This document shows positions 10,414 to 27,570 of a stretch of DNA of 64,000 nucleotides, in pieces. The stretch covers positions 186,001 to 250,000 of the forward strand of contig NZ_CP045119.1 in the NCBI RefSeq assembly GCF_011492945.1, read 5' to 3'. Numbering within the stretch: position 1 is the first letter of the stretch; every line of letters begins with the position of its first letter. The notes under the pieces were generated by a model that saw only the letters and a list, made by a program, of their open reading frames with translations, searched no databases and was not told where the DNA came from. The DNA comes from Rubrobacter tropicus (lineage in GTDB: Bacteria > Actinomycetota > Rubrobacteria > Rubrobacterales > Rubrobacteraceae). A program made the translations under genes and the position numbers.

Positions 10414-12027
10414 ATGAGAAGGTCCGCGGGTTCGACGGTTGACATGGGCGTCTTTGGGGTGTCGGTAGGCATCGCGGCGTTGTTCGTGTTGTGGGGTGTT
10501 CTCTTCGCGGAGAACCTTTCGGCGGTCGCGTCCGCGGCGTTGAACTTTTTGATAGGTTCCTTCGGCTGGGTCTTTATCCTCTCGACGTTCGGGTTCCTGA
10601 TCTTCGTGGTCTACCTGGCCTTCTCGCGCCACGGAAGGGTAAAGCTCGGTGCCGACGACGACGAGCCGGAGTTCAAGACCGTCTCTTGGGTGGCCATGAT
10701 GTTCAGCGTCGGCATGGGCATCGGCCTCATGTTCTTCGGCGTCGCGGAGCCCATCTCCCACTACGCCGCCCCGCCCCACGGCCTGGCCAAGGCGGAGACC
10801 GAGGGCGCCGCGCTGCTGGCGATGGAGTACTCGTACTTTCACTGGGCTTTCCACCCGTGGGCCATCTACGCCGTCGTGGGCCTGGCGCTCGCGTACTTCA
10901 CGTTCCGAAAGGGGCGCAAGAACCTCATAAGCTCCGCGTTCTACCCGATACTCGGGGACAAGGTAGACGGGCCCATAGGCAAGGGCATAGACACTTTAGC
11001 GATCTTCGCGACGCTCTTCGGGACGGCGACTTCCCTGGGGCTCGGGGCGCTCCAGATCACGGGCGGTCTCAACTTCTTGACCGACGCCGTTCCGGCCGAC
11101 TCGAACGCGTGGGCCATCGGGATTATCGCGTTCATGACCGTGGCGTTCATCCTGTCGGCGGTCTCAGGCATCCACCGGGGCATCCAGTGGCTCTCGAACG
11201 TGAACATGGTGCTTGCCGTGGCGCTGGTCCTGTTCCTGTTCGTCGTGGGCCCCACGGTCTTCGTCCTGAACACCTTCACGGAGTCCGTCGGCGGCTACTT
11301 CGCCAACCTGGTCCCGATGAGCTTCAGGACGGCGGCGTTCGGGGACGCGGCCTGGCTCGCCTCGTGGACCGTCTTCTACTGGGCGTGGTGGATCAGCTGG
11401 ACCCCGTTCGTCGGGACTTTTATAGCCAGGATCTCGCGCGGGCGCACCATCAGGGAGTTCGTGCTCGGCGTGCTCGTCGTGCCGAGCCTGGTCACGTTCG
11501 TGTGGTTCGGCGTCCTCGGCGGGTCGGCCCTCAACCTGGAGCTTACCGGCAACCCCGGGATAGTGGATGCGGTCTCCGAGAGCTCGACCGTAGCCCTCTT
11601 CGCCACCCTCGGCGAGTTCCCGCTGGCGGGTCTTATGTCCCTGATCGCCATAGTCCTCGTCGCGCTCTTCTTTATTAGCGGGGCGGACGCGGGGGCTGTC
11701 GTGATGGGAATGCTCTCCTCGCGGGGCGCCCTGGAGCCGAACCGGGCGGTCGTCGTGGTCTGGGGGACCCTCGCCGGCGCCACCGCCGCGATCTGCCTCC
11801 TCGCAAACGGCCTCGAAGGCCTGCAGCAGGCGGCCATCATCTCCGCGGCACCCTTCGTACTCGTCATGATCGCGATGTGCTACTCCCTGATGAAGGAACT
11901 CCGCGCGGAGCCCGGGACCGCCCCCGAGCGCCGAACCGCCCCCGAGCCGGAACGGGCCGCCACCCGTCCGCCCGGCGTCCCCGCGCCCCAGCACATGCGC
12001 TCGGAACGCGACGCGCGGGAGCGCTAG
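10414..12027 (+). CDS. BCCT-family transporter (betaine/carnitine/choline type)
   Basis: A 537-aa protein with 12 predicted membrane helices. It has the BCCT hallmark GMGIGLMFFGVAEP and, in TM8, WWISWTPFVGTFIARISRGRT, including the tryptophans that form the aromatic box for trimethylammonium substrates. The glycine-rich TM3 motif is of the Na+-coupled BetP type. Family members import glycine betaine, choline or carnitine for osmoprotection. The C-terminal tail is long, charged and Pro/Arg-rich (PGTAPERR... onward), possibly cytosolic and regulatory. The next gene starts 7 bp after the stop, so the two are almost certainly co-transcribed, which bears on the substrate of that enzyme. Confidence 0.92.
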   Translation: MRRSAGSTVDMGVFGVSVGIAALFVLWGVLFAENLSAVASAALNFLIGSFGWVFILSTFGFLIFVVYLAFSRHGRVKLGADDDEPEFKTVSWVAMMFSVGMGIGLMFFGVAEPISHYAAPPHGLAKAETEGAALLAMEYSYFHWAFHPWAIYAVVGLALAYFTFRKGRKNLISSAFYPILGDKVDGPIGKGIDTLAIFATLFGTATSLGLGALQITGGLNFLTDAVPADSNAWAIGIIAFMTVAFILSAVSGIHRGIQWLSNVNMVLAVALVLFLFVVGPTVFVLNTFTESVGGYFANLVPMSFRTAAFGDAAWLASWTVFYWAWWISWTPFVGTFIARISRGRTIREFVLGVLVVPSLVTFVWFGVLGGSALNLELTGNPGIVDAVSESSTVALFATLGEFPLAGLMSLIAIVLVALFFISGADAGAVVMGMLSSRGALEPNRAVVVVWGTLAGATAAICLLANGLEGLQQAAIISAAPFVLVMIAMCYSLMKELRAEPGTAPERRTAPEPERAATRPPGVPAPQHMRSERDARER

Positions 12028-12034
12028 GCCGATC

Positions 12035-15000
12035 ATGGACGAACGTAACCTCTGCCTGCACGAGCTCTTCGAGCGCCAGGTCCGGAGAACCCCGGACGCG
12101 ACGGCCGTGGTCGACGCGCGGACCACGCTGACCTACGCGGAACTGGACCGGCGGGCCGACGTGCTTGCCGCCCACCTGCGGAGCGCGGGCGTCGCGCCGG
12201 ACGCGGCGGTCGGCGTGTACATGGAGCGCTGCGCGGAGTATGTGGTGGCGATCCTGGCCGCCATGAAGGCCGGCGGCGCCTTCGTCCCCCTGGAGCTCGC
12301 CTACCCGCCCTCGCAACTCGAGGACGTTCTATCAGACTGCGAGCCTATCGTCGTGCTCACCAAAGAGGCCCACGCCGGACGCCTGCCCGACTGGCAGCGA
12401 GGCTTCCGGATGGACGTGGAGGAGCCAGCGACGTCCGACGAAACCCCCGAACCTCCCCGGGTGGACCGGGAGAACCTGGCTTTCATCCCGTACTCGTCGG
12501 GAACCACGGGCAAGCCGAAGGGCATCGCGAACCCGCACCGGGCCCCCGTGCTCTCGTACCTGTGGCGCTACGGTATCAGCGACTATGGGCCGGATGACCG
12601 GGTCGGGTGCAGCGTCTTCTTCGTGTGGGAGGTGTTGAGGCCGCTCTTGCGGGGCGGGGCCTCGTACGTCATCGGGGACGACGTCATCTACGACCCGCCG
12701 GCCCTCGTTCGATACCTGGAAGAGCACCGCATCACAGAGATCCAGATGACATCCTCGCTGACGGAGGCCGTCCTCGACGCGAGCGGCCCTGACCTCGCCG
12801 AACGCCTCCCCGACCTCAAGACGGTCTGGGTCTGCGGCGAGGTGGTCACGAAGACCCTGGCCCGCCGCCTGCTAGAAGCGCTGCCCCACACCTGTTCTTA
12901 CAACCTCTACAGCATCGCCGAGACCCACGAGGTCGCGGTAACGGAGCTCGGTGAAGCCCTGGGCCACCCCGAGTCCACGTACTGCCCCGTTGGCCGTCCC
13001 GCCCGCCCGGAGCGCCTGTACGTCCTGGACGACGGGCTTCGGCGCGTGCCCGAGGGGGAACCGGGCGAGGTCGTCGTCGGGGGAGAGATGCTCGCCCGCG
13101 GCTTCGTCAACCTGCCGGAGAAGACCGCGGAGCGCTTCGTGCCGGACCCGTTCGCCGGCGAGGGCGGGGCGCGGATGTACAGGACCGGCGACAGGGGACG
13201 GATGCTCTCAGACGGGCACCTGGAGATACTCGGACGCGCGGACTTCCGCGTGCGGATAAGGGGCTACAACGTCGAGCTCGGCGCGGTCGAGGCCGCCATC
13301 GAGACCCGCCTCGCCGTCCGGGCCTGCGTCGTGGTCTCCGAGGGCGACGAGGGCGAGGACAAGCGCCTCGTCGCCTACGTGGTCCCCGAGCCCGAAGACG
13401 ACCACCGCTTCTCCGGTTGGGACCTCGACCCGAAGACGGGGCGCAGCAAGGAGATCCGCAGCGCCCTGCGCGACGCCCTGCCACACTACGCGGTACCCGC
13501 AGTCTACGTCGAGCTCGACGCCCTCCCCATACAGGACACCTCCGGCAAGGTCGACCGCAAGAAGCTCCCGCCTTCCCCGCCCCGCCAGGCCCGCCCCGGC
13601 CGCGACGGGGATCTCTCCGGCGTACGGCTCACCGCCGACGCCTCCCGCTCCGAGAAAGAGGACCTGCTCAAGAGGATCTGGGAAGAGACGCTGCGCCTGG
13701 ACGAAGACGAGGTCGAAACCGACGACAACTTCTTCGACCTCGGCGGTCACTCGCTCGCCGCGGCCCAGCTCTCGGGCCGCGTGGAGGAGGGCTTCGGCGT
13801 CCACGTCTCGATGCCATTGTTCATGGAGGACCCGACGGTGGGCGGGCTGTGCGACAGGATCGAAGCCCTCCAGCGCGACGAAGACGGCGAAGCGCGCCCA
13901 TCTGAGGTAGACCTTCGCGCCGAGGCGGTCCTGGAACCGGAGATCTTGCCGGAGGGAGGAGAGACGAAGGACCTGCGCAACGCAGAGAACGTCTTCCTGA
14001 CGGGTGCCACGGGCTTTCTCGGGGCCTTCCTCCTCGACGGCCTGCTCTCCTCGACGGGGGCCCGCGTCCACTGCCTCGTCCGGGAGCGCGAGGACGAGGA
14101 CCCCATCGAGACCATCGCCTCGAACCTCGAAAGCTACGGGCTCCCGGTGGACGGTATGGACCGCGTCGTGCCGGTCGTGGGGGATCTCGGGGAGCCTTTG
14201 CTCGGTATGGACCCGGAGAAGTTCGACGCGCTGGCGCGGGAGGCGGACCTCGTGATCCACGCCGCCGCCGCCGTGAACCTCGTCTACCCTTATCCCGCGC
14301 TGAAGGCGCCGAACGTCGGTGGCACGCGCGAGGCGCTGCGCCTCGCCTGCCGCCGCAGAACCAAGCCGTTCCACTTCGTCTCGACCGACGGCATCTTCCC
14401 CCCAGACGCGGAACTCTGCGAGGAGGACACGGATCTCGACTCCCTCGCCGAAGCCCGCGAGGACGGCTACGGCCGGTCCAAATGGGTGGCCGAGAAGCTC
14501 GTGCGGGAGGCGGCCGGGCGAGGTCTTCCGGCCTGCGTCTACAGGCCGGGCTTCATCTCGGGGCACTCCGAGACCGGCGCCTCGAACCCGCGCGACCTGC
14601 AGGGAGCGGTACTCTCGGAGTCGTTGCGCCTGGGGGCCGCGCCCGAGGTCGATGGCTGGAGGCTCGAGATGACGCCCGTAGACTTCGTGGCCGCCGCGAT
14701 CCTCGACGTCGCCTCCAAACCCGAAGCCCTCGGCGGGACCTACCACCTCGCCAACCCGGAGCCCGTTCCCGCGGAGACGGTCTTCGACTGGCTGGAGGAA
14801 GGAGGATACGTGTTGGATCTCGTCCCCCACGAGGAATGGTCGAACCGCCTGGAGGCCGCGCCGCCCGAAGACGAAAACGGGCCCGGCGGCGTCCTGCGCG
14901 GGGCCTCCCCGGACGCCGCAGACCTCTCGGACAACAACGTCTACGACGACCGGAACACCCGGCGAATCCTGGGCGAAGACGGCCCGACAAGGCCGGATCT

Positions 15001-15097
15001 GAACGAGGACCTCATCCTGACCTACGCCCGGTACTTCGCCGCACGAGGTTGGGCGCCGGAACCAGCGTCCCTACAGGAGAGCGGACGCCAGGGTTAG
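12035..15097 (+). CDS. NRPS-like A-T-R carboxylic acid reductase
   Basis: A 1020-aa single-module enzyme. The adenylation domain (about 20-510) has PYSSGTTGKPKG, YRTGDRGRM, RVRIRGYNVELG and TSGKVDRKK. The carrier domain (about 540-610) has DNFFDLGGHSLAAAQ with the phosphopantetheine Ser. The thioester reductase domain (about 650-1000) has the NAD(P)H motif TGATGFLG and the YGRSK active-site pair. Such enzymes activate a carboxylic acid, load it as a thioester and release an aldehyde. By hand alignment to the PheA pocket, the Asp that holds the alpha-amino group is Val194, and neighbouring pocket positions are Phe195, Trp198 and Trp265. A substrate lacking a free amine is therefore likely. Because a BCCT transporter gene ends 7 bp upstream, glycine betaine (giving betaine aldehyde) is an attractive candidate; aryl or other acids remain possible. 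Confidence 0.9.
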   Translation: MDERNLCLHELFERQVRRTPDATAVVDARTTLTYAELDRRADVLAAHLRSAGVAPDAAVGVYMERCAEYVVAILAAMKAGGAFVPLELAYPPSQLEDVLSDCEPIVVLTKEAHAGRLPDWQRGFRMDVEEPATSDETPEPPRVDRENLAFIPYSSGTTGKPKGIANPHRAPVLSYLWRYGISDYGPDDRVGCSVFFVWEVLRPLLRGGASYVIGDDVIYDPPALVRYLEEHRITEIQMTSSLTEAVLDASGPDLAERLPDLKTVWVCGEVVTKTLARRLLEALPHTCSYNLYSIAETHEVAVTELGEALGHPESTYCPVGRPARPERLYVLDDGLRRVPEGEPGEVVVGGEMLARGFVNLPEKTAERFVPDPFAGEGGARMYRTGDRGRMLSDGHLEILGRADFRVRIRGYNVELGAVEAAIETRLAVRACVVVSEGDEGEDKRLVAYVVPEPEDDHRFSGWDLDPKTGRSKEIRSALRDALPHYAVPAVYVELDALPIQDTSGKVDRKKLPPSPPRQARPGRDGDLSGVRLTADASRSEKEDLLKRIWEETLRLDEDEVETDDNFFDLGGHSLAAAQLSGRVEEGFGVHVSMPLFMEDPTVGGLCDRIEALQRDEDGEARPSEVDLRAEAVLEPEILPEGGETKDLRNAENVFLTGATGFLGAFLLDGLLSSTGARVHCLVREREDEDPIETIASNLESYGLPVDGMDRVVPVVGDLGEPLLGMDPEKFDALAREADLVIHAAAAVNLVYPYPALKAPNVGGTREALRLACRRRTKPFHFVSTDGIFPPDAELCEEDTDLDSLAEAREDGYGRSKWVAEKLVREAAGRGLPACVYRPGFISGHSETGASNPRDLQGAVLSESLRLGAAPEVDGWRLEMTPVDFVAAAILDVASKPEALGGTYHLANPEPVPAETVFDWLEEGGYVLDLVPHEEWSNRLEAAPPEDENGPGGVLRGASPDAADLSDNNVYDDRNTRRILGEDGPTRPDLNEDLILTYARYFAARGWAPEPASLQESGRQG

Positions 15098-20098: not shown

Positions 20099-21961
20099 TT
20101 GCGGATCGCCCCCCTCCGGGGGCTTCGCTTGAGAGCATCGGGAGGGTGGCACGGGCCGGAGCGCCTCTGGCGCCATCTGCGGCGGGGGGCGGCCGCCTAC
20201 GGGGTGCTCCTGATCTCGCTGCTCCTCACGGCGCTCGCCTGGTACTACGTGCGCGACACGGTCGAGAAGCAGAACGGCGTGCGCTTCGGCGAGACGGTGA
20301 GGGCCACCCAGGCGGCCGTGGACCGCCGCACGGACGATTACCTGGACGCGATGTTCGGCGCCCGCGGCCTGATCCTCGCCAGCGAATCCGTCACCCCCGC
20401 CGAGTGGGAGGAGTACGTGAAGGGCGTGGAGCCGGGGAGGCGCCTCGGGGGTCTCCAGACCCTCGCGTACGCGGAGCGCGTGGAGCCCTCCGAGCGCGAG
20501 GATTTCGTCCAGAGGATGATGGAGGAAGGGTTGCCCGGTCTTCGGCCCGATCTGGATCCGGGCGGGGAGCGCGGCGTCTACTTCCCCGTAAGCCTCGCGG
20601 CGCCCGCGAACGAGGCGAACCGCGAGATGTTCGGGCGCGACGAGTACCCGTACACCGTCTATAAGACGGCCATGAACCGGGCGAGGGACTCAGGCTCGCC
20701 GCAGGCCACGGAGACGACCTACGTGCTCACGGAGAACCCCCCTGGGGCGACCGCCGACCTCGCGCGGCTGCAGGGCTTCGCGGTTTACCTGCCGGTCTAC
20801 GAGTCGGGCGAGCCCACGGGGACCGTCGCCGAGCGTCGTCGGGCCCTGCAGGGTTTCATAGTCGGCGCTTTCAGGAGTGACGACCTGCTCGACGCCGTCT
20901 TCGGCGGCAGCTTCGAACCGGCCATAGACTTCGAGGTGTACGACGGACTGGACGTCGAGGCAAGCGCCTTGCTCTACGACGCGGACGGGATACAGCGCGC
21001 CGGCATGGGGGGTGACGAGCTGTTCACCGAGAAGCGCAGGCTCGAGGTGGCCGGGCGGGACTGGAGCCTGTACTTCGCCACGTTGCGGGGCTTCGAGAGG
21101 AACGCGCAGAGCAACCTGCCCCTCTTCGTGCTGGCGACGGGGCTCGGGGTGAGCCTGCTGCTCTTCGGCATCTCCCTGATGCTCGTGCGCAGCCGCCTGC
21201 GCGCCGAGCGGGCGAGCGAGGAACTCGAAGACGTCAACCGGGAGCTCGAAGGGACCAACCGGGAGCTCGAAGCCTTCTCCTACTCCGTCTCCCACGACCT
21301 GAGGGCGCCTCTGCGCACCATAGACGGTTTCTCCCAGATCCTCTCGGAGGACTACGGCGACAAGCTCGACGACGAGGGCCTCGACTACCTGAGGCGGGTC
21401 CGGTCCGCGAGCAGGCACATGGCCGAGCTCATAGACGACCTGCTCGACCTCTCGCGGGTCGGCCGGAGGCCGCTGAGGCGCGAGAGCGTGAACCTGAGCG
21501 CGCTCGCCTCGGGCATCGCGGAAGATTTGAGGAGGACCGCCCCGGGGCGCAACGTGGAGTTCGACATCGAGGAAGGCGTCACGGCCAGGGGCGACGTCGG
21601 CCTGCTGAAGGTGGCCCTCGAAAACCTGCTCGGCAACGCCTGGAAGTTCACCTCCAGGGAGGAGCGCGCGACAATCCGCTTCGGCGTCTCCGGGGGCGCC
21701 TTCTACGTCTCGGACGACGGGGCGGGCTTCGAGGAGGCCTACAAGGACAAGCTCTTCGGCGCCTTCCAGCGGTTGCACGGGCCGGAGGAGTTCGAGGGGA
21801 CCGGCATAGGGCTGGCAACGGTGGCGAGGATCATACACCGCCACGGCGGCGAGGTGTGGGCCGAGGGGGAGGTGGGTGAGGGGGCCACCTTCCGCTTCAC
21901 GCTCGGCGGGAGGGACAGGCCCGCGGAAGAGGCCGCCGCCAGGAAGAGAGAGCCGGCGTGA
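20099..21961 (+). CDS. CHASE-domain sensor histidine kinase
   Basis: A membrane-bound sensor kinase of about 620 aa. It has an N-terminal membrane helix (about 35-55), an extracytoplasmic CHASE ligand-binding domain (about 75-325), a second membrane helix (about 345-367) and a short coiled linker with two similar RELEGTN/RELEAF repeats. A HisKA domain follows with phosphoacceptor His399 in SVSHDLRAPLRTIDGF, then a HATPase domain with LLGNAWKF and DDGAGF. The kinase part resembles the phytochrome-like HisKA group. The start is uncertain: TTG at 20099 is the furthest, another TTG at 20129 is possible, and neither has a good ribosome site. The stop overlaps the start of the next gene, suggesting co-expression. 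Confidence 0.88.
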   Translation: MRIAPLRGLRLRASGGWHGPERLWRHLRRGAAAYGVLLISLLLTALAWYYVRDTVEKQNGVRFGETVRATQAAVDRRTDDYLDAMFGARGLILASESVTPAEWEEYVKGVEPGRRLGGLQTLAYAERVEPSEREDFVQRMMEEGLPGLRPDLDPGGERGVYFPVSLAAPANEANREMFGRDEYPYTVYKTAMNRARDSGSPQATETTYVLTENPPGATADLARLQGFAVYLPVYESGEPTGTVAERRRALQGFIVGAFRSDDLLDAVFGGSFEPAIDFEVYDGLDVEASALLYDADGIQRAGMGGDELFTEKRRLEVAGRDWSLYFATLRGFERNAQSNLPLFVLATGLGVSLLLFGISLMLVRSRLRAERASEELEDVNRELEGTNRELEAFSYSVSHDLRAPLRTIDGFSQILSEDYGDKLDDEGLDYLRRVRSASRHMAELIDDLLDLSRVGRRPLRRESVNLSALASGIAEDLRRTAPGRNVEFDIEEGVTARGDVGLLKVALENLLGNAWKFTSREERATIRFGVSGGAFYVSDDGAGFEEAYKDKLFGAFQRLHGPEEFEGTGIGLATVARIIHRHGGEVWAEGEVGEGATFRFTLGGRDRPAEEAAARKREPA

Positions 21962-24900
21962 TGGGAGCGGGCGTCCCCGTGCGCTTGCTGCTCGTCGAGG
22001 ACTCCGAGAACGACGCCATGCTCCTCCTGCGCGAGCTCCGGCGCGGCGGCTACGAACCGGACTACGAGCGGGTCTACACCCCCGAGGACATGGAGCGGGC
22101 GCTGAAAGACGCCGACGCCCGGGGGGGGCCGTTCGAGGTCGTCGTCTCCGACTACTACATGCCCCGCTTCAGGGCTCCGGACGCGTTGGAGCTCCTGCGG
22201 GGTCTCGGGTACGACGTGCCTTTCATAGTCGTCTCCGGCAAGATCGGGGAGGACGCGGCCGTCGGGATCATGAAGGCGGGCGCCAACGATTACCTGACCA
22301 AAGAGAACATGGCGCGGCTCTGCCCGGCCATCGCGCGCGAGCTCAAGGAGGCCGGGGTCCGCAGGGAGCGGGCGAGGGCCGAGGAGGCGCTGGCGCGCAG
22401 CGAGGAGCGGTTCCGTCGGCTCGTCGAGCAGGCCGCGGACGCGATGTTCGTGCACGACCTGGAGGGCAACCTGGTGGACGTCAACCGCCGGGCTTGCGAG
22501 TCGCTCGGGTACTCCAGGGAGGAGTTGCTCGGCATGAACGTGGCCGACGTCGAGGTCGGGATTCCCCCCGAGACCTTCCGCGGGGTGTGGGACAGGATCT
22601 CCTCCGGCGCGCCCGTCACGCTGGAGGGCAAGCACCGGCGCAAGGACGGGACGACCTTCCCCGTGGAGGTGCGCGTGGGCGCGTTCGAGTCGGGGGAGCA
22701 GACGCTCCACCTCGCCCTGGCGCGCGACGTCACGGGCCGCAGGGACGCCGAGAGAAAGGTGAGGGAGGCCGAGGCCCGCTACAGGACCCTCGTCGAGCAG
22801 ATACCGGCCGTCACCTACGTCCAGCAGCTGACCGGCGACAAGCGCGTCACCTACGTCAGCCCGCAGGTCGAGAGCGTGCTCGGCTACCCGGCCGACAGGG
22901 AGTTGCTCGACGGGGATCACTGGACAAAGATCATGCACCCCGACGACCGCGAGAGGGTCCTCGCCGAGGACGAGCGCACAGACAAGACGGGCGAGCCGTT
23001 CAGGGCGGAGTACCGCCAGTTCGCCAGCGACGGGAGGATGGTCTGGATCAGGGACGAGGCCGTGCTCGTGCGCGACGAGGATGGGAACCCCCTCTACTGG
23101 CAGGGCGTCCAGTACGACATTACGGATCAGAAGCTCGCCGAAGAGGGCCTGCGCAGGAGCGAGGAGCGCTACAGGACCTTTATAGCGCAGAGCACAGAGG
23201 GGATCTGGTGCTTCGAGTTCGAGGAGCCGCTGCCGACGGACCTGTCAGACGACGAACAGTTGGACCACCTCTACCGCCACGCCTACCTCGCCGAGTGCAA
23301 CGACGCCATGGCCCGGATGTACGGCTTCGGGGGCGCATCAGAGATCGTCGGCGCCAGGGTCGGCGACCTCCTGCCCCGCTCGAAGCCGGAGAACGTGGAG
23401 TTCTTGAGGGCGGCGACCCGGGCCGGCTACCGCATAACCGAAGGCGAGACGACCGAGCTCGACCGCGACGGCAGCGCCAGGGTCATCGTCAACAACCTCA
23501 CCGGCATAGTCGAGGACGGATACGTGGTGCGGGTCTGGGGTACCCAGAGGGACGTAACGGAGCAGAAGGAGGCCGAGGAGCAGCTCGCGCGCCTGGCCTC
23601 ATTCCCCGAGCTCAACCCGAACCCCATCATCGAGACCAGCGTCGCCGGCGAGCCGACCTACCTGAACCCCGTGGCCCAGGCCCGCTTCCCGGACCTTCGG
23701 AGGCTGGGGCCGGACCACCCGGCGCTCGCCGACCTCGAAGGGGTGAACCAGCGCATCTGGTCGGCGGGGGGGCGGCCTTTCACCCGCGAGATCGAGGTGG
23801 GCGGGCGCTACTACCAGCAGACCGTCTCGCGCACGCCCGAGGGCGGCCTCCTGCGCATCTACGGGATCGACGTTACCGAGCGGCGCCAGGCCGAGGACGC
23901 GCTGCGCAAGAGCGAGGAGCGGTTCCGGTCTTTGGTGCAGAACACCTCGGACATCATCATCGTGCTGGACGAGGATGGGACCGTCGTCTACGAGAGCCCG
24001 GCCATCGAGCGGGTGCTGGGTTACAAGCCGGAGGAGAGGATCGGGTCGAACGCGTTCGAGTTGATCCACCCCGACGACCGCGACCGCGTGGCCGGCGTGT
24101 TCTCCGCCTACCAGGACCATCCCGGCCCGTTTCCGCCCGTGGAGTACAGGGTCATGGACAAGAGCGGCGAGTGGCGCACCCTGGAAGCCGTCGGCGAGAA
24201 CCTGCTCGACGACCCGGTGATCCAGGGCATAGTCGTAAACTCCCGCGACGTCACAGAACGCCGGCGGACGGAGGAGGCACTCAAGCAGAGCGAGGAGCTC
24301 CTGAGGACCGTCGTCACGAACGCCCCCGTCGCGCTCTTCTCCCTCGACGTGGAAGGCGTCTTTACCTTCTCCGCCGGGCGTGGGCTGAAGACTTTGGGCC
24401 TGGAGCCCGGCGAGTTGGCCGGCCGCTCCGCCTACGAAGTCTACGCCGGCGCGCCCGGCGTCCTCGAAGACATCCGGCGGGCGCTCGCGGGCGAGGAGTT
24501 CGTCGGCACGAGCGAGGTCGGGGGCCTCGTCTTCGAGACCTGGTACGGGCCCCTGCGCGCCGAAGACGGCGCGGTCAAGGGCGTGATCGGGGTCGCGACC
24601 GACGTGACGGAGAGGGCGGAGGCCGAGGACGGCCTGCGCAGGACGCTCAAGGAACTCGCCGACCTCAAGTTCGCCCTCGACGAGTCGGCCATAGTCGCCA
24701 TAACGGACCAGAAGGGCGCGATCACCTACGTCAACGACAAGTTCTGCGAGATCTCCGGCTACTCGCAGGATGAACTCGTCGGCCAGGACCACCGCCTGGT
24801 CAACTCCGGCCACCACCCGCCCGAGTACATAAAGGGCCTCTGGAGGACCATCGCCAGGGGGCGCGTCTGGCGCGGGGAGCTCAAGAACCGGGCAAAGGAC

Positions 24901-27570
24901 GGCTCGATCTACTGGGTGGACACCACGATCGTGCCTTTCCTGAACGAGCGGGGCAAGCCCTACCAGTACGCGGCGATCCGGTACGACGTCACCGCCCGCA
25001 AGGCGGCCGAGGAGGCGCTAAGGGAGAGCCAGGAGAGCCTGCAGGCCATCCTCGACAACACGACGGCCGTGATCTACGTCAAGGACGCCGAGGGCCGCTA
25101 CGTCCTCGTGAACCGCCGCTTCGAGGATTTGTTCCACTTCGCCAAAGACCAGGTCATCGGCAAGACCGACCACGATATCTTCGGGAAGGAGTCGGCGGAC
25201 GCCTACCGGAAGAACGACCTTGAGGTGCTCCGCTCGGAGGCCCCGCTCGAAGTCGAGGAGACGGTCTTCCAGGACGACGGCACGCACACCTACGTCTCCG
25301 TCAAGTTCCCGTTGAAGGGGCCGGACGGGTCCCCTTACGCGACGTGCGGCATCTCCACGGACATCACCCCGCGCAAGCGGACCGAGAGGGAGCTTCGGGA
25401 GAGCGAGGAGCGTTTTCGGGCCACGTTCGACCAGGCGGCCGTCGGGATGGCCCAGGTCGGGCTCGACGGCAGGTGGCTGCGCGTCAACCGGAGGCTCTGC
25501 GAGATCCTCGGCCACACCGAAGAAGAGTTGCTGGACCTCGACTTCCAGCGGATAACCCACCCAGACGACCTCGACAAGGACCTCGAGTCGTTGGGGCGGC
25601 TGATCTCGGGTGAGATAGAGACCTTCTGGATGGAGAAGCGCTACTTCCACAAGCGCGGCTCGACCGTCTGGGTCAACCAGACGGTCTCGCTGGTACGCGG
25701 GCCCTCGGAGGCGTCCGAGTACCTGATAGCGGTGGTCGAGGACATAACCGAAAGACGCAGGGCGGAAGAGGCCCTGCGCGAGTCCGAAGAGCGTTACCGG
25801 ACGCTTTTCACGACCATAGACGAGGGGTTCTGCCTGTGCGAGATGGTCGTCGACGAAGACGGCACGCCGGCGGACTATCGTTTCCTCGACGTGAACCCGA
25901 AGTTCGAGGAGATGACCGGCCTCGCCGACGCGGTGGGCAAGACGATCACGGAGCTCGTGCCGGGGCTCGAGGGCCGCTGGGTCGAGACGTACGGGCGGGT
26001 GGGGCTCGGCGGCGAGACGCTCCGCTTCGAGGACGGCTCGGAGGCGATGGGCCGCTGGTTCGACGTGTACGCCTCCCCGGTCGAGCCGAAGGGGGGCGGG
26101 AGGTTCACCCTCGTCTTCAAGGACATAACCGAGCGCAAGCGGGCCGAGGAGGCCCTGCGCCTGAGCGAGGCGCGCGCCAACCTGGCCCTCGGCGTCGCCA
26201 GGTTGGGCACCTGGAGCTGGGACCCGGGCCGCGACGAGATCTTCGCCGACGCCCGCACCCGTGAGATCTGCGGCCTCGACCCCGACACGCCGCTCTCGCT
26301 CTCCGGCATCACGCCCCTCGTCCATCCCGAAGACCGGCCGCGCGTCGAGGCGGCCATGGGGGCCGCCCTTCAGCCCGACGGCGACGGGCTCTACGCCGAG
26401 GAATTCCGGTTCGTCCGCCCGGACGGCGATTTGCGCTGGGTGATCTCGCGCGGGCAGACGCTCTTCGAGGGCGAGCAGCGGCGGCCCGACCTCCTGCTCG
26501 GCACCGTCCTCGACATCACGGAGCGCAAGCGGGCGGAGGAGTCCCTCAGGCAGAGCGAAGAGCTCTACAGGAGCGTGATAGAGCAGGCGGTCGAGAGCAT
26601 CTTCCTTTTGGACATCGAATCCTTGCGCGTGTTGGAGGCCAACGCCGCGCTGGGCGAGACCCTGGGGTATACGCCCGAGGAGCTCAAGGGCATGTCGTTT
26701 TACGACATAAGCGCCCACGACCGGGAGAGCGTCGGGCGCAACGTCGAGCGCGTGGTGCGCGAGGGACGGCTCTCCCTCGGCGTGAGGCAGTACAGGCGCA
26801 AGGACGGCGGGCTCGTGGACGTCGAGATCAGCATCAGCACCGTGCCCTACGGCGGCCGGCGGGCGATGTGCGTGGTGGCCCACGACGTGACCGGGCGCCG
26901 GCGGGCCGAGAAGGCGCTCGAGGGCATCAGGGAGGCCGAGCGAAACCGGATAGCCCGCGAACTCCACGACAGCATCCTGCAGGACATCGTCTACGCCCTG
27001 CAGGAGATACAGGTACTCCAGGTTACGGGCCAGAACGGCGACGACCCGGCCCTGCAGGACTCGGCCGACGCCCTCAGACGCTCGGTGGAGGGGCTGCGCG
27101 GCGCCATCTTCGAACTGCGGCTGAAGGAGACGACGGAGCGGTCCTTCGTCTCCTCGCTAAAGAGCCTCGTGGACCTGAGCCGCCGCATGGCGCGCGGGAA
27201 GTACGAGCTGGACCTGGTGGTCGGGAGCGGCGTGCCGCAGAGACTGCCCGAGGGGTACGGGAGGGAGGTCGTGCGGATCGTCCAGGAGGCGCTTACCAAC
27301 GTCCGCCGCCACGCCGCCGCAAGCCGCGTCCGGGTCGAGATCGGCGTCGATGGGGATAACCTGTACGCCGAGGTCGTCGACGACGGCCGCGGCTTCGATC
27401 CGGAAGACTCGCACTCGGGCGTCGGGCAGTACTCCATGCGTCAGAGGGCGCTGGATCTGGGCGGGGAGCTCAAGGTCGAGAGCGGGGTCGGCGGGGGCAC
27501 GCGGGTGCTCTTGCGCGTGCCGCTCTCCCGGCTGGCCGAAGAAATCTCGGCAAAGGAACAAGATTTCTAG
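21961..27570 (+). CDS. REC-(PAS)12-NarL-type histidine kinase
   Basis: A 1869-aa soluble hybrid sensor. An N-terminal receiver (about 5-125) has the phosphoacceptor Asp64 in VVVSDYYMP. About twelve PAS/PAC units follow back to back from about 145 to 1655, each closing with the DVT or DIT plus ERxxAEEAL-type linker. The C-terminal transmitter is of the HisKA_3/HATPase type: His1669 in ARELHDSILQD and LTNVRRHAAASRV. No membrane segment is seen. The N-terminal receiver may take phosphate from the CHASE kinase just upstream, and the kinase may feed the NarL-type regulator 97 bp downstream. ATG 21961 overlaps the preceding TGA; a GTG at 21958 is the alternative. The number of PAS domains is extreme for a single protein. 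Cofactors of the PAS units cannot be told by eye. Confidence 0.9.
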   Translation: MGAGVPVRLLLVEDSENDAMLLLRELRRGGYEPDYERVYTPEDMERALKDADARGGPFEVVVSDYYMPRFRAPDALELLRGLGYDVPFIVVSGKIGEDAAVGIMKAGANDYLTKENMARLCPAIARELKEAGVRRERARAEEALARSEERFRRLVEQAADAMFVHDLEGNLVDVNRRACESLGYSREELLGMNVADVEVGIPPETFRGVWDRISSGAPVTLEGKHRRKDGTTFPVEVRVGAFESGEQTLHLALARDVTGRRDAERKVREAEARYRTLVEQIPAVTYVQQLTGDKRVTYVSPQVESVLGYPADRELLDGDHWTKIMHPDDRERVLAEDERTDKTGEPFRAEYRQFASDGRMVWIRDEAVLVRDEDGNPLYWQGVQYDITDQKLAEEGLRRSEERYRTFIAQSTEGIWCFEFEEPLPTDLSDDEQLDHLYRHAYLAECNDAMARMYGFGGASEIVGARVGDLLPRSKPENVEFLRAATRAGYRITEGETTELDRDGSARVIVNNLTGIVEDGYVVRVWGTQRDVTEQKEAEEQLARLASFPELNPNPIIETSVAGEPTYLNPVAQARFPDLRRLGPDHPALADLEGVNQRIWSAGGRPFTREIEVGGRYYQQTVSRTPEGGLLRIYGIDVTERRQAEDALRKSEERFRSLVQNTSDIIIVLDEDGTVVYESPAIERVLGYKPEERIGSNAFELIHPDDRDRVAGVFSAYQDHPGPFPPVEYRVMDKSGEWRTLEAVGENLLDDPVIQGIVVNSRDVTERRRTEEALKQSEELLRTVVTNAPVALFSLDVEGVFTFSAGRGLKTLGLEPGELAGRSAYEVYAGAPGVLEDIRRALAGEEFVGTSEVGGLVFETWYGPLRAEDGAVKGVIGVATDVTERAEAEDGLRRTLKELADLKFALDESAIVAITDQKGAITYVNDKFCEISGYSQDELVGQDHRLVNSGHHPPEYIKGLWRTIARGRVWRGELKNRAKDGSIYWVDTTIVPFLNERGKPYQYAAIRYDVTARKAAEEALRESQESLQAILDNTTAVIYVKDAEGRYVLVNRRFEDLFHFAKDQVIGKTDHDIFGKESADAYRKNDLEVLRSEAPLEVEETVFQDDGTHTYVSVKFPLKGPDGSPYATCGISTDITPRKRTERELRESEERFRATFDQAAVGMAQVGLDGRWLRVNRRLCEILGHTEEELLDLDFQRITHPDDLDKDLESLGRLISGEIETFWMEKRYFHKRGSTVWVNQTVSLVRGPSEASEYLIAVVEDITERRRAEEALRESEERYRTLFTTIDEGFCLCEMVVDEDGTPADYRFLDVNPKFEEMTGLADAVGKTITELVPGLEGRWVETYGRVGLGGETLRFEDGSEAMGRWFDVYASPVEPKGGGRFTLVFKDITERKRAEEALRLSEARANLALGVARLGTWSWDPGRDEIFADARTREICGLDPDTPLSLSGITPLVHPEDRPRVEAAMGAALQPDGDGLYAEEFRFVRPDGDLRWVISRGQTLFEGEQRRPDLLLGTVLDITERKRAEESLRQSEELYRSVIEQAVESIFLLDIESLRVLEANAALGETLGYTPEELKGMSFYDISAHDRESVGRNVERVVREGRLSLGVRQYRRKDGGLVDVEISISTVPYGGRRAMCVVAHDVTGRRRAEKALEGIREAERNRIARELHDSILQDIVYALQEIQVLQVTGQNGDDPALQDSADALRRSVEGLRGAIFELRLKETTERSFVSSLKSLVDLSRRMARGKYELDLVVGSGVPQRLPEGYGREVVRIVQEALTNVRRHAAASRVRVEIGVDGDNLYAEVVDDGRGFDPEDSHSGVGQYSMRQRALDLGGELKVESGVGGGTRVLLRVPLSRLAEEISAKEQDF

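Follow-up and report, generated by a model that had tools for sequence, protein, structure and literature searches.

In Rubrobacter tropicus, the gene for a transporter of the BCCT family is directly followed by the gene for an NRPS-like protein with an adenylation (A), a thiolation (T) and a thioester reductase (R) domain, and as judged from sequence the pair probably belongs to a bacterial glycine betaine reductase system, of which it would encode the importer and the A-T-R1 part. The two genes occupy the following positions of the window, by which is meant the whole stretch of 64,000 nucleotides that was analysed:

10414..12027, + strand: BCCT-family transporter, probable glycine betaine importer (537 aa; PF02028, E 4.6e-194).
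12028..12034, + strand: intergenic gap of 7 bp between the BCCT stop and the A-T-R start, read from the sequence.
12035..15097, + strand: NRPS-like A-T-R carboxylate reductase of 1020 aa, which would be the A-T-R1 part of the proposed bacterial glycine betaine reductase.

That the A-T-R gene starts 7 bp past the BCCT gene, as the original prediction had it, is confirmed by the spacer at 12028-12034, and both open reading frames are real by their domain matches. A gap this short argues for co-transcription. Upstream of the pair lies a gene for an Nramp-like transporter; downstream follow a gene in the opposite orientation, for a PRC-barrel protein, and one for a Clp-type ATPase. The unit in the window thus consists of the BCCT and A-T-R genes only. 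Farther along the window, at 21958-27570, an ORF of 1870 aa resembles a sensor histidine kinase that has several PAS domains and, at its N-terminus, a receiver domain.

In profile searches the A-T-R ORF matches the models for AMP-binding (PF00501), PP-binding (PF00550) and thioester reductase (TIGR01746; 306.3 bits at a cut-off of 213.35) domains, and their order is the A-T-R1 order of the ATRR glycine betaine reductase. The core motifs of all three domains are intact:

12068..13567, + strand: adenylation domain, residues 12-511, with motifs YSSGTTGKPKG, YRTGDRGR and TSGKVDRKKL intact.
13664..13861, + strand: thiolation domain (PF00550), with the phosphopantetheine Ser in DNFFDLGGHSL.
13988..15046, + strand: thioester reductase domain (R1; TIGR01746), with GxxGxxG and YxxxK motifs (TGATGFLGA, YGRSKWVAE).

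By its score above the cut-off of TIGR01733, the A domain belongs to the NRPS type. Carboxylic acid reductases (CARs) share the A-T-R order and also take an acid to an aldehyde, but the window protein reaches only 206 bits with their model NF041592, which has a cut-off of 1300, and 391.6 bits with the L-aminoadipate reductase model TIGR03443, which has a cut-off of 1030.1. With both scores so far below their cut-offs, the protein does not, by these models, take a place among the aryl-acid reductases; such a place had been named in the original prediction as something that would count against it. Orthologues of the A-T-R gene occur in 27 of the 39 genomes of the same family. One orthologue (L028; G028 contig 1, 1742764-1745500) is split over frames into 238 + 812 aa, so that the gene is either in decay or wrongly assembled.

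The substrate pocket of the A domain is unlike that of A domains that activate alpha-amino acids. In the latter, Asp235 binds the amino group, and the loop that carries this residue is missing from the window protein, which in multiple alignment is five residues shorter here (PheA GQFASISFDASVWE against G--CSVFF---VWE); most of the best-matching solved A domains have a five-residue insertion at the Asp235 loop relative to the window protein. The relevant parts of the pocket are:

12608..12631, + strand: short hydrophobic loop CSVFFVWE, residues 192-199, which replaces the PheA Asp235 loop and holds Phe195 and Trp198.
12827..12829, + strand: Trp265 (PheA Ile299), candidate cation-cage aromatic, from alignment to PheA.
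12929..12931, + strand: Glu299 (PheA Ile330), acidic pocket residue, which is Glu throughout the family and Asp in the Rhodobacterales and PKS relatives.

Val194, Phe195, Trp198 and Trp265 have the positions that were originally given to them. The amino-binding Asp is indeed missing, but not through its simple replacement by Val194, as had been proposed, since the whole loop is shortened. The aromatic cation pocket proposed at the same time is right in kind, but the charge-bearing Glu299 was overlooked. Trp198 corresponds to the usual Trp239 of PheA, and the distinctive aromatic is Trp265. The best candidate for binding of a cation is Glu299 together with Trp265. In the family as a whole the loop follows the consensus C[NS][VI]FF[IV]WE, and the short loop and the Glu at PheA position 330 occur in all members. 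In both the betaine-activating ATRR-A and the DMSP-activating BurA-A, unlike in amino-acid A domains, the D235 loop has given way to a shorter one that is hydrophobic, and an acidic residue is so placed that it can meet the positive charge (PMC7496086). These two features are found in the window protein as well, when it is compared with the published description (PMC7496086), by which, rather than by alignment, Glu299 is set beside the fungal residue; no published pocket residues of fungal ATRR were found in the open-licence literature. At PheA positions 278, 301 and 322, the window's own clade has Gln, Cys and Leu, against Leu, Asn and Val in the rest of the family, and from this follows that its substrate could have shifted.

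The BCCT protein scores 645.8 bits with PF02028 (cut-off 27) and 540 bits with TIGR00842 (cut-off 407.55), and narrowly misses, by 10 bits, the cut-off of the glycine betaine BCCT model NF047988 (639.8 against 650). With BetP/OpuD-type BCCTs it shares the fold and the aromatics of the betaine box, of which the Trp and Tyr residues, those at Tyr197 and Trp377 included, are present. Its motif GMGIG places Gly at position 153 of BetP, as in those transporters, and the mutation G153D turns BetP choline-specific (PMC6400524). What sets it apart from the BetP/OpuD type, besides the missing 10 bits, is that its gene lies directly before a reductase gene.

This arrangement is found repeatedly. A BCCT gene lies directly upstream of the A-T-R gene in nine genomes from five genus-level lineages (G000, G024, G015, G032, G035, G036, G037 and G398, together with G016, in which the BCCT gene is incomplete at the edge of a contig). 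Those gaps between the two genes that were measured span 7-97 bp. BCCT, A-T-R and SDR genes stand in a row in three of these genomes (G032, G015 and G398). Most A-T-R orthologues are without a neighbouring BCCT gene. The link is thus recurrent, not obligate, and it is more than chance, because a gene type with only four copies in the 4.58-Mb genome of the window recurs at the same place in nine genomes of five lineages. The type of pocket, the betaine-type BCCT and the recurring linkage point together to a zwitterionic onium acid as the substrate, and we infer that it is most likely glycine betaine. The original prediction is to that extent upheld, apart from the Val194 detail and from the product.

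The product had been expected to be betaine aldehyde, since the window protein has a single R domain, and this expectation is probably wrong. The last domain of the ATRR of fungi and nematodes is R2, a YdfG-like SDR (PMC11050029), and this domain is absent from the window polypeptide. One among 396 genomes of the phylum, G327, which is outside the family and, like G398 (the contig of which could be misbinned), an incomplete assembly, has a gene for one polypeptide of about 1300 aa in which a C-terminal SDR comes after A-T-R, and this layout matches the fungal A-T-R1-R2. Over residues 1-1010, the A-T-R part of this fused protein shares 47% identity with the window protein, and it has the same pocket. 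The SDR part of the fused protein is 63-73% identical to the products of SDR genes that lie directly downstream of A-T-R in ten relatives. The SDR matches split sharply, into those with 63-74% identity and those with 49% and less, and the genome of the window has an R2 orthologue on contig 1 at 1,050,642-1,051,370 with 69% identity, while the next SDR has 47%. This gene is 0.85 Mb away from the A-T-R gene, and in the window's genus R2 is not beside A-T-R. Of the 39 genomes, 20 have both A-T-R and R2, 11 have neither, 7 have only A-T-R and 1 has only R2 (Fisher p 2.5e-4, calculated with relatedness ignored and with some genomes incomplete). A 1328-aa ORF in G003 was considered as a second A-T-R-SDR fusion and rejected, its extra residues being a spurious N-terminal extension. 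Among proteins of solved structure, R2 is closest to clavaldehyde dehydrogenase, an enzyme that converts an aldehyde to an alcohol. Since the window's genome has an R2 orthologue, and relatives have R2 joined to A-T-R or next to it, the end product to be expected is choline, and choline rather than betaine aldehyde is what the pathway is likely to deliver. An R domain that carries out a four-electron reduction would give choline as well; the solved R domain closest to that of the window protein is the R domain of MxaA, which is a thioester-to-alcohol reductase.

To exemplify the proposed mechanism, consider a molecule of glycine betaine that is imported by the BCCT protein. The A domain would bind the betaine where the Asp235 loop is cut away, with the trimethylammonium group held by Trp265, Phe195, Trp198 and Glu299, and would then adenylate the carboxylate and load it onto the T domain. 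The R domain would release betaine aldehyde by use of NAD(P)H, and the separate SDR (R2; contig 1, 1,050,642-1,051,370) would reduce betaine aldehyde to choline. Choline would feed a phosphatidylcholine synthase of the Pcs type, and possibly also a PAPS-dependent sulfotransferase that makes choline-O-sulfate.

The genomes contain candidates for these last steps. No BetA above cut-off was found in any of the 39 genomes, and there is thus no sign in them of the usual route from choline to betaine. The window's genome encodes a CDP-alcohol phosphotransferase for which phosphatidylcholine synthases make up the five best NCBIfam models, all scored below their cut-offs; this Pcs-like protein has the motif DGx2ARx12Gx3Dx3D, and its gene is present in 30 of the 39 genomes. 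In the window's genus, R2 is clustered with an APS kinase and with a protein in which a PF19798 sulfotransferase is fused to ATP sulfurylase. In the window's own genome the fusion protein has 642 aa (L206:11320-13248, contig 1 near 1,053,319-1,055,247), and its gene lies beside those of the APS kinase and the R2 SDR. Fusion protein and APS kinase read as a self-contained sulfation unit that makes its own PAPS. A PF19798 sulfotransferase gene also precedes the fused A-T-R-SDR gene of G327, and in four genomes from three genera (L261, L265, L259 and L263) such a gene adjoins those of OpuAC-type binding proteins of glycine betaine ABC transporters. There is here a hint that the acceptor of the PF19798 enzyme is a quaternary-ammonium alcohol, and a suggestion that choline-O-sulfate is a second destination of choline, which is held at low confidence because the PF19798 sulfotransferase is nearly universal in the family. 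As an obligate partner of A-T-R this sulfotransferase was rejected, since most of the 39 genomes have it, whether A-T-R is there or not. Also rejected was a choline-kinase Pfam match beside a second sulfotransferase copy in the window's genome, for which the nearest NCBIfam model is GntI, below cut-off, and for the fused HAD part of which it is histidinol-phosphatase. A sulfatase near a PF19798 sulfotransferase scores 114.8, against a choline-sulfatase cut-off of 433. The complete route, in which imported betaine is converted to choline by a split ATRR, and choline is passed on both to phosphatidylcholine (by Pcs) and to choline-O-sulfate (by the sulfotransferase, with PAPS from the fused ATP sulfurylase and the neighbouring APS kinase), can at present be proposed only tentatively.

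A maximum-likelihood tree of A domains covered the family and its bacterial relatives together with ordinary NRPS A domains and with acyl-CoA ligases. In it the family forms one clade (support 100/99) with an A-T-R protein from a Nostoc plasmid, three A-T-R proteins from Rhodobacterales and two PKS-attached A domains, and the ordinary A domains and the ligases stand apart from this clade. The short loop is common to the whole clade, and Asp or Glu is found at PheA position 330 in all but the Nostoc protein. The Rhodobacterales proteins, of about 930 aa, are encoded on plasmids of Paracoccus aestuarii, Limimaricola variabilis and Paracoccus aminovorans (L276:6566-10077, L277:6563-10092, L278:6566-10235), each with an adjoining convergent SDR gene, and are possibly a second onium-acid reductase system. 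The Nostoc carneum protein (L172:5001-8006), which has the same short loop without the acidic residue at 330 and without Trp239, is probably a sister enzyme with another substrate. The A domains in PKS proteins of Mesorhizobium and Eleftheria (L279:4747-11991, L280:4687-12570) are of the short-loop, acidic-pocket type and are candidates for the use of onium-acid starter units. These relatives beyond the phylum are an incomplete set; a pocket-alignment scan of genome contigs responded mainly to the generic YSSGTTG motif, so that its matches were all distant ligases, and the viral contigs searched gave no match.

The same machinery could instead serve another onium acid, such as DMSP, gamma-butyrobetaine, carnitine, proline betaine or dimethylglycine, which would be imported by the BCCT protein and reduced to its aldehyde or alcohol. 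The BCCT family accepts several onium compounds, and three pocket residues are changed in the window's clade. BurA-A, which has the same two pocket features, prefers DMSP (PMC7496086). Such a substrate is nevertheless less likely than glycine betaine when the BCCT protein has the betaine-type Gly at BetP position 153 and its closest score is with the glycine betaine model, when the genome encodes a Pcs-like consumer of choline, and when the fused relative is built like the betaine-reducing ATRR.

Less probable still is an ordinary A-T-R reductase of an uncharged or an aryl or alkyl acid, with the BCCT gene an incidental neighbour and the SDR devoted to some other aldehyde. A-T-R reductases exist for many acids and most orthologues have no BCCT neighbour, but an ordinary reductase would account poorly for an invariant Glu in the pocket, for the missing Asp235 loop, for the recurrence of the BCCT gene in five lineages and for the low CAR score of 206 bits at a cut-off of 1300. 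That betaine is the substrate, but is reduced to choline in a four-electron reaction by the R domain alone, with R2 in another pathway in the window's genus, is the least probable alternative. It agrees with the closeness to the MxaA R domain, with the unlinked position of R2 in the window's genome and with the seven genomes that have A-T-R without a close R2; it is at odds with the fusion of R2 to A-T-R, or its position beside it, in at least 11 other loci, and with the retention of R2 in the window's genome at 69% identity.

The glycine betaine reductase proposed here would work like the fungal ATRR, and in its split and fused bacterial forms would be a new version of a known enzyme type. 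With the enzymes of Aspergillus nidulans (ATRR) and nematodes (MiATRR) it shares the A-T-R1 order and, by the description in PMC7496086, the short hydrophobic loop and the acidic residue; the SDR that serves them as second reductase is likewise fused in the bacterial G327 protein. It differs from them in that R2 is a separate and distant gene, in the linked BCCT importer and in its bacterial host, and it is kept apart from ATRR proper because R2 is unfused and the eukaryotic enzymes were compared by description only. The BurA adenylation domain, part of an NRPS-PKS that uses DMSP, has the same two pocket features and activates a zwitterionic acid, but there the loaded acid is extended by the PKS, whereas in the window enzyme it would be released by the reductase. 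The BetA/BetB pathway involves the same metabolites, choline, betaine aldehyde and betaine, in the opposite direction and with unrelated enzymes.

Oxidation of choline to betaine is textbook bacterial metabolism, while the energy-spending reduction of betaine to choline is on record for fungi and has been suggested for nematodes. The open-licence literature yielded no report of a bacterial betaine reductase or ATRR of this kind, and to our knowledge the system in the window would be the first. If the proposal is correct, bacteria that require choline could use an abundant osmolyte as the source of phosphatidylcholine, or of choline-O-sulfate, there would be a gene-level candidate for bacterial synthesis of choline-O-sulfate, and the eukaryotic enzyme would have its origin, or else a parallel, in prokaryotes. 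A testable gene signature can be drawn from the fused and the split forms: a short-loop A domain, an acidic residue at PheA position 330, an SDR partner and a BCCT neighbour.
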